From: Burkholderia cepacia ATCC 25416
GTDB lineage: Bacteria; Pseudomonadota; Gammaproteobacteria; Burkholderiales; Burkholderiaceae
Assembly: GCF_001411495.1 (NCBI RefSeq)
Contig: NZ_CP012981.1
Coordinates: 1,488,001-1,552,000 of the forward strand
Reading direction: 5' to 3'
Length of the DNA stretch: 64,000 nt
Below, in pieces: positions 32,461-34,124 of the stretch. Under the pieces are notes generated by a model. It saw only the letters and a list, made by a program, of their open reading frames with translations. It had not been told where the DNA came from and made no database searches. A program made the position numbers and the translations under genes. Position 1 is the first letter of the stretch; every line of letters starts with the position of its first letter.

Positions 32461-32873
<413 letters not shown>

Positions 32874-32943: not shown

Positions 32944-33366
32944 TCAGCCGGCGACGATGTCGAACGAATGCGTGAGTTCGGCCGTCTTCGCGATCATGAT
33001 CGACGCGGAGCAATACTTGTCGTGCGACAGGTTGATCGCGCGTTCGACCGTGGCCGGGTTCAGGTTGCGGCCGGTGACGGTGAAGTGGAAGTGCACTTTC
33101 GTGAACACCTTCGGGTCTTCGCTCGCGCGTTCGGCCTTCAGTGTGACCGAGCAGCCGCTGACTTCCTGGCGGCTCTTCTTCAGAATCAGCACGACGTCAT
33201 AGGCCGTGCAGCCGCCGGTGCCGAGCAGCACCATCTCCATCGGGCGCGGCGCGAGGTTGTGACCGCCGCCTTCGGGCGCGCCGTCCATCGCGACGAGGTG
33301 GCCGCTGCCGGTCTCGGCGGAAAACGCCATGCCGTCCTGACCCATCCAGCTTACTTTGCATTCCAT
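32944..33366 (-). CDS. OsmC-family protein
   Basis: 140-aa member of the OsmC/Ohr thiol-peroxidase superfamily, YhfA-like branch. The start at 33366 (MECKVSWMGQDGMAFSAETG) gives the family length. One redox-type cysteine lies in LLGTGGCTAYDVVLILKKSR and a second in HDKYCSASIMIAK, the usual two-cysteine layout. Peroxidase activity is inferred from the superfamily. It lies convergent to rnpB, beyond its terminator. Confidence 0.88.
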   Translation of the reverse strand: MECKVSWMGQDGMAFSAETGSGHLVAMDGAPEGGGHNLAPRPMEMVLLGTGGCTAYDVVLILKKSRQEVSGCSVTLKAERASEDPKVFTKVHFHFTVTGRNLNPATVERAINLSHDKYCSASIMIAKTAELTHSFDIVAG

Positions 33367-33646
33367 GCTTGCACTCCAGCGTTGCCTGATTCGGATTCGA
33401 TCCGGCATTGTAGCCCGCGGCGCAACGACCGGCTGATGCGGTGCACGACGCGCAACGCGGGCACCGCGCGAGCGGCGCCCCGGACAGCCAATTCCCCTCG
33501 GGACTTAGGGGTTTTGCTCTAGACGAGGGCGGCTCCTGATCGTGCTTTCCGGAATCAGGCCATTGATTTCAAAGAGAAAAGTCGTGATTCAAACGCGCCG
33601 CATTAAATTTCATATTGTGGCGTTTGATTTCGCAATGCAAATTTTC
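33367..33646. other. intergenic region upstream of the small-RNA promoter
   Basis: No coding sequence is convincing here. The right half is AT-rich, and an inverted repeat TCAAACGC (33589-33596) / GCGTTTGA (33620-33627) lies about 20 bp before the -35 of the promoter at 33647. It may be a regulator site for that promoter or for the divergent OsmC gene. Confidence 0.45.
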
Positions 33647-33675
33647 TTGTGGAGTCGACGACGCGTTCGTATAAT
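33647..33675 (+). promoter_or_regulatory. sigma70-type promoter of the candidate small RNA
   Basis: TTGTGG (33647-33652), a 17-bp spacer and a perfect TATAAT (33670-33675). The predicted start is A33683. No protein gene follows in this orientation before the terminator at 33745. Confidence 0.75.
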
Positions 33676-33682
33676 GAGCCTC

Positions 33683-33773
33683 ATTGGTTGTCGCGCTGCG
33701 GCAACCTCCGAATGTCTCCTCCACCCTCCTCCTATGGTGGATTAAGCCCGAACCAGCCGTTCGGGCTTTTTTT
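33683..33773 (+). ncRNA. candidate trans-acting small RNA with an anti-Shine-Dalgarno loop
   Basis: Predicted transcript of about 91 nt between a clear promoter and a clear terminator, with no open reading frame of note. Three stem-loops can be drawn. SL1 is GGTTGTCGC / GCGGCAACC (33686-33706, one G-U pair, 3-nt loop). SL2 is a 6-bp stem (33720-33725 / 33736-33741) that presents the loop CTCCTCCTAT, complementary to Shine-Dalgarno sequences. SL3 is the terminator. C-rich CUCC/CCUCC loops are a known design of bacterial small RNAs that block ribosome binding. Existence and function are inference. It may already be in Burkholderia transcript catalogues. Confidence 0.65.
33745..33773 (+). terminator. 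terminator of the candidate small RNA
   Basis: AGCCCGAAC (33745-33753), loop CAGCC, GTTCGGGCT (33759-33767), then a 7-T run (33767-33773). The left side has no A-run, so it is directional (+), and the only + transcript it can end is the one from 33683. Confidence 0.88.
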
Positions 33774-33818
33774 CGTCCCATGCAAACATCGGCGCGCGGT
33801 TTGCGCGCACCGACAGGG

Positions 33819-34124
33819 TTACGCGGGTTGCCTTGCGGCAGGTTGCGAGGTCGCGTCGGGCGGCGTGCCGCGCGGGCGCGCATCGGGCGCCGGCGCATGG
33901 ACGGCCGATGCATGGCCGTGCCCGCGTGCGCAGAAGTGGCGGACGCGTTCGCGCACCGCGCGCAGGCGGGCGACGCGATCCTCGGCATGCGCGGCACGGG
34001 CTTCGGCAAGGCGTGTATCGAGGGCTTCGAGCTTGGCTTCGCAGTCGGCGCGGGCGGCGACGGCAGGTGCTGCGGCGGCCAGCATCACGGCCGCGAGGAA
34101 GGGTGTAAGTCGTTGATTCATCAT
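33819..34124 (-). CDS. DUF1090-type small periplasmic protein
   Basis: 101-aa exported protein. The signal peptide ends near AAAPAVAARA, followed by the DUF1090 pattern: Cys in DCEAKLEALDTRLAEARAA, then RVARLRAVRERVRHFCA with a second Cys. This matches E. coli YqjC-like proteins, where the two cysteines flank a helical hairpin. The tail is low-complexity, rich in Pro, Ala and Arg. Two ATGs in tandem (34124, 34121) are equally possible. Function unknown. Confidence 0.75.
   Translation of the reverse strand: MMNQRLTPFLAAVMLAAAAPAVAARADCEAKLEALDTRLAEARAAHAEDRVARLRAVRERVRHFCARGHGHASAVHAPAPDARPRGTPPDATSQPAARQPA

Follow-up and report, generated by a model that had tools for sequence, protein, structure and literature searches.

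The window, a stretch of 64,000 nt from Burkholderia cepacia ATCC 25416 (GCF_001411495.1, NZ_CP012981.1, positions 1,488,001-1,552,000 of the forward strand), contains a small RNA gene which, judged by its sequence, is orthologous to NcS27 from Burkholderia cenocepacia. The length of the RNA, its extra 5' hairpin, the orientations of the genes around it and a CGA|AUG motif all support this assignment, and the feature is therefore already known. We put at about 0.92 the probability that this known RNA is a processed, trans-acting anti-Shine-Dalgarno (anti-SD) sRNA which blocks translation. In the present analysis the basis for this reading is architecture, structure, conservation and family membership; expression, processing, growth effect and affected genes have been published for the orthologue NcS27, and we infer RNA-mRNA pairing in ATCC 25416. 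Furthermore, a signature in the promoters of the Rfam family RF02278 suggests that these RNAs are controlled by PhaR.

Four RF02278 RNAs, ncS03, ncS05, ncS27 and ncS62, have been described in B. cenocepacia J2315 (PMC4603805, PMC5688073), among which ncS27 is reported to be longer, at 92 nt, and to be processed at CGA|AUG (PMC7377471). The RNA of the window has a predicted length of 91 nt and carries both the 5' hairpin (SL1) and this motif (Table 1). The published orientation of ncS27 and its flanking genes (-> <- ->) agrees with that of the window, whose neighbours were compared with BCAL3348a and BCAL3349 by orientation only. NcS27 has been detected by dRNA-seq, qPCR and 3' RACE, with higher levels reported in biofilm, stationary phase, starvation and glucose medium; the 2017 study gives increases in glucose medium of 8.0-fold for ncS03, 6.9-fold for ncS05 and 4.3-fold for ncS27, and calls the regulator of accumulation of these sRNAs unknown. 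The CU-rich segments of NcS27 have been predicted to cover ribosome-binding sites, its overexpression is reported to slow growth, with the reverse effect for an antisense of the CU-rich part, and the genes affected are those of phenylalanine and tyrosine catabolism and of carbohydrate transport (review PMC10987360). A transposon study counts ncS27 and ncS03 with the 14 genes whose loss was favoured in both host models (PMC12013268). Growth inhibition upon cloning in E. coli has been published for the RF02278 family.

Table 1. Features of the NcS27 locus, in positions of the window.
Feature	Position	Strand	Basis
Small RNA gene, NcS27 orthologue	33683..33773	+	RF02278 match, fold, conservation; start inferred
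-35, TTGTGG	33647..33652	+	TTG invariant in 80/80 rows (loci listed)
-10, TATAAT	33670..33675	+	per-position identity 73 to 80 of 80 rows (loci listed)
SL1, 5' hairpin, 9 bp, outside the Rfam model	33686..33706	+	fold, covariation
CGA|AUG, NcS27-type processing motif	33709..33714	+	sequence and published site
Site 1, unpaired UGUCUCC, first anti-SD segment	33713..33719	+	GUCUCCUCCA invariant in 69/69; continues into SL2 arm
SL2, 6 bp, UCCACC/GGUGGA	33720..33741	+	fold; order-level compensatory changes
SL2 loop CUCCUCCUAU, 10 nt, second anti-SD segment	33726-33735	+	fold
Intrinsic terminator, 10-bp stem and T run	33744..33773	+	scan, covariation
Candidate PhaR operator (moderate), just upstream of -35	33625..33645	+	matrix 10.8 bits; S. 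meliloti consensus
Conserved upstream box TNYCRCATTRTGR	33608..33620	+	80-row profile
Inverted repeat TCAAACGC / GCGTTTGA	33589-33596 / 33620-33627		sequence inspection
Divergent neighbour, OsmC-family gene	32944..33408	-	PF02566, 64.5 bits
Convergent neighbour, gene of a small DUF1090-like protein	33819..34124	-	PF06476, 23.8 bits, cut-off 24.4

Inspection of the sequence located the promoter, RNA and terminator elements of the original prediction, all of them where it had placed them, with a spacer of 17 bp between the -35 and the -10. The fold of the RNA starting at 33683 (minimum free energy -38.3 kcal/mol, z -5.3, as stable in 0 of 200 shuffles) agrees with the three stem-loops that had been drawn, and with an SL2 made of a 6-bp stem and a 10-nt C-rich anti-SD loop. 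The account of the anti-SD segments is here corrected, as there are two of them: in addition to the SL2 loop there is the invariant 5' strand that enters SL2. Both are predicted to be unpaired in the full-length and in the processed form of the RNA; the predicted cut, placed behind 33711, would yield a form of 62 nt. A cmscan search matched positions 33713-33774 to RF02278, "Betaproteobacteria toxic small RNA", with 74.6 bits, where the cut-off is 50 (E 3.1e-13), and the architecture of this family is found in full: two hairpins, C/U-rich sequence in the 5' strand and in the first loop, and an intrinsic terminator. SL1 falls outside the model because the latter begins at the 5' C/U-rich strand. 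Membership of the NmsR family (RF02877; NmsRb) was rejected because the score of 27.6 bits is below the cut-off of 52, as was that of the anti-hemB family (RF02837) at 25.2 bits against 49.5. The terminator was also listed by a simple scan, a call which is weak by itself because 4 terminator-like sites were found and 1.9 expected; a simple promoter scan did not list the window promoter, whose -35 matches only 3/6. An ordinary RNase P RNA gene (RF00010, 291.6 bits) is located in the window at 32462-32873.

An OsmC search of named genomes gave 80 loci listed, in 79 of which the RNA lies beside OsmC; the exception (L066) ends where the RNA should be. Alignment A1 holds 69 of the 71 distinct sequences, two (L057 and L059) having been left out. 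The two anti-SD stretches (GUCUCCUCCA and CUCCUCC) and the 3' arm GGUGGAUU are invariant in all 69. When the structure of the window RNA is laid over A1, 95.3% of the cells pair, compared with 92.1% for shuffled partners and at most 50.5% for slid partners, and two-sided changes occur in 74 cells against 20.4 in the shuffles; further pair types (19) are not above the shuffles (18.7). The covariation in A1 stems from SL1 and the terminator. SL1 is paired in 87.9% of its cells, with the innermost pair open in 37/69, and the SL2 stem shows just two changes, each to a G-U pair. In L057 and L059 (both Paraburkholderia; ~2109-2201) SL1 is absent by a natural gap and the core stands directly behind the promoter. 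Since these two lack SL1, like the shorter paralogues, this hairpin is dispensable.

SL2 covaries at the level of the order, in the 79 sequences of alignment A2 (L225, L227 and L229 left out). Pair 5 is CG in 43, UG in 23, UA in 9 and AU in 4, and pair 3 is CG in 75 and UA in 4; pairs 1 to 5 are standard in 79/79 and pair 6 in 69/79, with a C-rich run between the arms in every sequence. The folding of the 5' parts alone counts against the model, as no more than 36/79 minimum-energy structures keep a C-run of the loop open; in six examples that were refolded a loop stretch was paired in two. The conservation foreseen for the RNA is thus found in stems that covary and in a CUCCUCC invariant in 69/69 aligned sequences.

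The same alignment bears on whether selection at this place keeps a short + strand protein gene followed by a terminator. The RNA is indeed overlapped by mechanically called + strand ORFs (67, 155 and 209 aa), none of which is supported as a protein gene. The overlapping ORFs have no Pfam match, 38/69 aligned orthologues carry a 1-nt gap inside SL2 (column 50), and therefore a frame running through it is shifted; moreover, the hairpins show compensatory base changes and the region matches the RNA family RF02278. The protein-coding reading, which we regard as scarcely credible, was rejected on the lack of a Pfam match and on the SL2 gap. It had been stated that loop and stems unconserved beside a conserved short ORF would speak against an RNA; the opposite came out, an RNA that is conserved and ORFs that are unsupported.

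In the mechanism that we favour, a sigma-70-type promoter would give an RNA of ~91 nt ending at the intrinsic terminator, and a probable cut at CGA|AUG would convert it into a double-hairpin form of ~62 nt. Through its SL2 loop and the single strand at its 5' side the RNA would pair with Shine-Dalgarno regions of mRNAs, thus blocking translation, above all of genes of transport and catabolism; the anti-SD pairing was modelled with made-up leaders. The RNA might otherwise be a decoy which binds a protein or the ribosome by mimicking the anti-SD tail of 16S rRNA, and does not act on chosen mRNAs. The C/U-rich segments of RF02278 are near-copies of the 16S anti-SD itself, which counts for a decoy, and they are nearly alike throughout the order, 69 of 79 beginning with TGTCTCCTCCA among the matches listed, as a general mimic would require. 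However, the published target sets are limited, the effects of NcS27 depend on the carbon source, as published, and the relative S17 has a reported direct target, so a decoy seems improbable to us. The reading as an anti-SD regulator, already published for NcS27, is supported, in agreement with the original prediction.

Within Burkholderia, 26/26 sampled genomes have 4 to 7 RF02278 matches each; the genome of the window has 5, of which 4 are over the cut-off, the loci related to the window RNA being L001, L002, L004 and L005. Of 300 genomes sampled in the order, 188 give a match at E <= 0.001, and in 114 a match exceeds the cut-off; no RF02278 match was found in 14 control genomes. As DNA, the locus was matched in 156/200 genomes of the family. 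Up to 9 matches per genome occur among the matches listed. The fifth family member of the window's genome, L005, lies on chromosome 2 (G000:C2:1154436-1154504, - strand) and scores 42.5 bits against the cut-off of 50; many of the 26 Burkholderia genomes sampled contain L005-like matches of ~36 to 45 bits, and by sequence L005 is probably a real family member missed by the cut-off. Upstream of the promoter region of L004 (G000:C2, - strand) lies a perfect palindrome of 18 bp, AGTTGTATCGATACAACT; the relative ncS62 in J2315 is reported to be near cepI. In family f8, RF02278 RNAs occur as neighbouring pairs, as do the NmsR siblings of Neisseria (L170, G206:C1:1646040-1646722; G403:C10 near 271947-272222; G432:C1 near 278702-278990).

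PhaR is a regulator responsive to polyhydroxybutyrate (PHB), with a published operator YTKNTGCRNYGCANMAR in R. eutropha (PMC12849132) and WNWDDNYGCRNYGCRNHHWNW in Sinorhizobium meliloti (PMC12542648). We sampled 79 promoters from 74 genomes of the order, chosen by RNA score from the matches listed, leaving out Burkholderia and the tandem pair L170; the motif was spotted in the first 19 promoters and the other 60 were taken afterwards. In this sample from the matches listed TTGC[AG]N[TC]GCA occurs in 32/79 promoters (shuffles: mean 0.61, maximum 3), that is in 13/19 of the first and 19/60 of the later ones, and it was taken as PhaR-like because it resembles the published operator. A matrix was built from 15 sites that are tabulated for S. 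meliloti as bound efficiently, leaving out the exoH sites (several for one gene). At 10 bits or more it finds a site in 44/79 promoters from the matches listed (shuffles 2.0, maximum 4), and in 31 of the later 60 alone (shuffles 1.75, maximum 5). The R. eutropha consensus, likewise among the matches listed, is present in 39/79 with at most 2 mismatches (1.6 in shuffles) and in 50/79 with 3 (11.4 in shuffles); if 3 mismatches are allowed, the S. meliloti consensus is undiscriminating, with 63/79 against 54.3 in shuffles. As to the Burkholderia paralogues, the two chromosome-1 types have a PhaR site in 31/31 promoters, 37 nt before the RNA core and over the -35 in 30 of the 31. On chromosome 2, matrix and consensus find no PhaR site in the promoter of L005, and that of L004 scores 1.7 bits by the matrix, with 3 mismatches to the R. 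eutropha and 1 to the S. meliloti consensus, within the limits.

PhaR (PF07879) was found in 203/300 sampled genomes of the order, and the 10-bit site follows it: among the matches listed it is present in 42/59 promoters of genomes with a PhaR gene found and in 2/20 of those without (Fisher p 2.4e-6, kinship ignored). With the same sources and kinship ignored, the later 60 alone give 29/41 and 2/19 (p 1.5e-5), and one promoter per genome gives 39/54 and 2/20. At least one site is found among the matches listed in each of twelve families whose promoters come all or mostly from PhaR-bearing genomes (f1, f3, f4, f8, f10, f11, f18, f21, f31, f39, f48 and f49), and none in the 13 promoters listed for f15, f29, f33, f47 and f50, which are from PhaR-less genomes only. 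The mixed family f43 has a site in 1/6 of the promoters listed, a weak one in a PhaR-less genome. In f36 a site occurs in a genome without a PhaR match which is 85% complete, and two sampled congeners have PhaR. Within genus g34, the PhaR-less genome has no site (-3.1) and the PhaR-bearing one has a site (14.4).

This co-occurrence has to be weighed against the possibility that the signature is a -35 element in extended form, or else a site at which some other factor binds. It frequently overlies the -35 hexamer, and in f4 only 2/8 promoters listed from PhaR-bearing genomes have the site; nevertheless, the motif extends well past a -35, in family f8 precedes the RNA core by ~25 nt, tracks the PhaR gene as given above, and is found by a matrix derived from alphaproteobacterial PhaR sites. 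The NcS27 promoters themselves lend such an element some weight, as the TTTC half is conserved beyond the needs of PhaR sites and the window box, with 4 mismatches to the R. eutropha consensus, exceeds the published limit of three. Under that rule, and using an informal grouping into Burkholderia s.s. and others, 1/31 NcS27 promoters pass inside Burkholderia s.s. and 48/49 outside (loci listed). Taken together, we hold a different element or factor to be possible, if somewhat doubtful, and PhaR control to be the better explanation.

For the window promoter itself, the profile of the 80 rows (loci listed, window included) shows a nearly invariant -10, a -35 that keeps TTG throughout and conserved upstream blocks at 33563-33573, 33608-33620 and 33627-33646. 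The inverted repeat to which regulation had been ascribed does exist in the window, but its regulatory role falls because it is unconserved, the mean identity of its arms to the window being 0.33 and 0.42 over the 80 rows listed, and it was rejected as operator. Also set aside were the perfect palindrome TTTCRYAWTRYGAAA, without a match in the genome (with 3 mismatches, 6 matches within the window against 3.7 expected), and a tandem-box pattern, which at up to 3 mismatches gave the NcS27 site without any mismatch and five further places with 3, against two for a control pattern, and therefore no wide regulon of that geometry. The sequence TTGCRNYGCASMA has 57 matches genome-wide and its reversed control 40, which in a GC-rich genome is uninformative by itself. 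The box just upstream of the -35 reaches its matrix score with alphaproteobacterial S. meliloti PhaR sites and has 0 mismatches to the S. meliloti consensus; there are 2 places of this kind in 64000. At 8 bits, the -35 box of NcS27 is found in 43/49 loci listed outside Burkholderia s.s. and in 0/31 inside, and the upstream box in 22/49 outside and 12/31 inside, window included. A PhaR gene is present in the window's genome, where the better of two phasin-family genes has two PhaR-type sites upstream. Thus, PhaR control has good support at the level of the family, and we consider the PhaR operator of the window's own NcS27 gene a candidate of moderate strength; the sites of the L001 and L002 types are stronger and lie at the -35.

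We propose, as a reasonably probable model, that in PHB-making betaproteobacteria the RF02278 RNAs form a PhaR-repressed regulon which is released by PHB and curbs nutrient uptake and catabolism. PhaR bound to a TTGCRNYGCA operator at or near the -35 or the -10 would repress the RNAs. Nascent PHB granules are reported to attract PhaR (PMC12849132); they would draw it off the operators, so that the RNAs would rise as carbon is stored and cover the ribosome-binding sites of genes for uptake and catabolism of carbon sources and amino acids. Stored carbon would in this way feed back on appetite, and the circuit would be a counterpart to PhaR/AniA and MmgR in alphaproteobacteria. Repression by PhaR fits the rise in glucose medium and the MmgR precedent; by analogy with R. 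eutropha, where PhaR is reported to activate phaP3 (PMC12849132), PhaR may instead be an activator of these RNAs. In our literature search no paper tied PhaR to RF02278 or NcS27 RNAs, the 2019 NcS27 paper lying outside its reach. An upstream motif is said to be common to three of the four homologues in J2315, and part of the promoter signature may therefore be known. If true, the PhaR operator would explain the glucose response and give the RF02278 family a sensor, and it would become possible to test directly, in ordinary laboratory bacteria, whether the PHB store feeds back on nutrient uptake.

Among known systems, the closest is NcS27 of J2315, which shares with the window RNA the length of ~92 nt, the extra 5' hairpin, the CGA|AUG motif, the double hairpin with CU-rich loop and the orientation of the neighbours; the strain differs, and the NcS27 literature as available leaves PhaR control unmentioned. 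The B. cenocepacia RNAs ncS03, ncS05 and ncS62 belong to the same family and have the same two anti-SD segments, but lack SL1 and begin at the core, as published. S17 of Bordetella pertussis is similar in its C-rich segments, its short processed form and its repression at ribosome-binding sites, and a lacZ fusion is reported to show repression of a target; it differs in its longer precursor and its genomic place, and its overexpression left the exponential growth of E. coli unimpaired. The NmsR siblings of Neisseria (RF02877) are reported to have three stem-loops, a UC-rich strand between SL1 and SL2, a UC-rich SL2 loop and targets at the SD of metabolic genes; unlike the window RNA, which scores below the cut-off of that family, they are a tandem pair under RelA control. 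MmgR of S. meliloti is of a different RNA family and from the alphaproteobacteria; as a small RNA gene tied to PHB and reported to be repressed by PhaR/AniA through a promoter dyad, it provides a precedent for the proposed PhaR control of the RF02278 RNAs.
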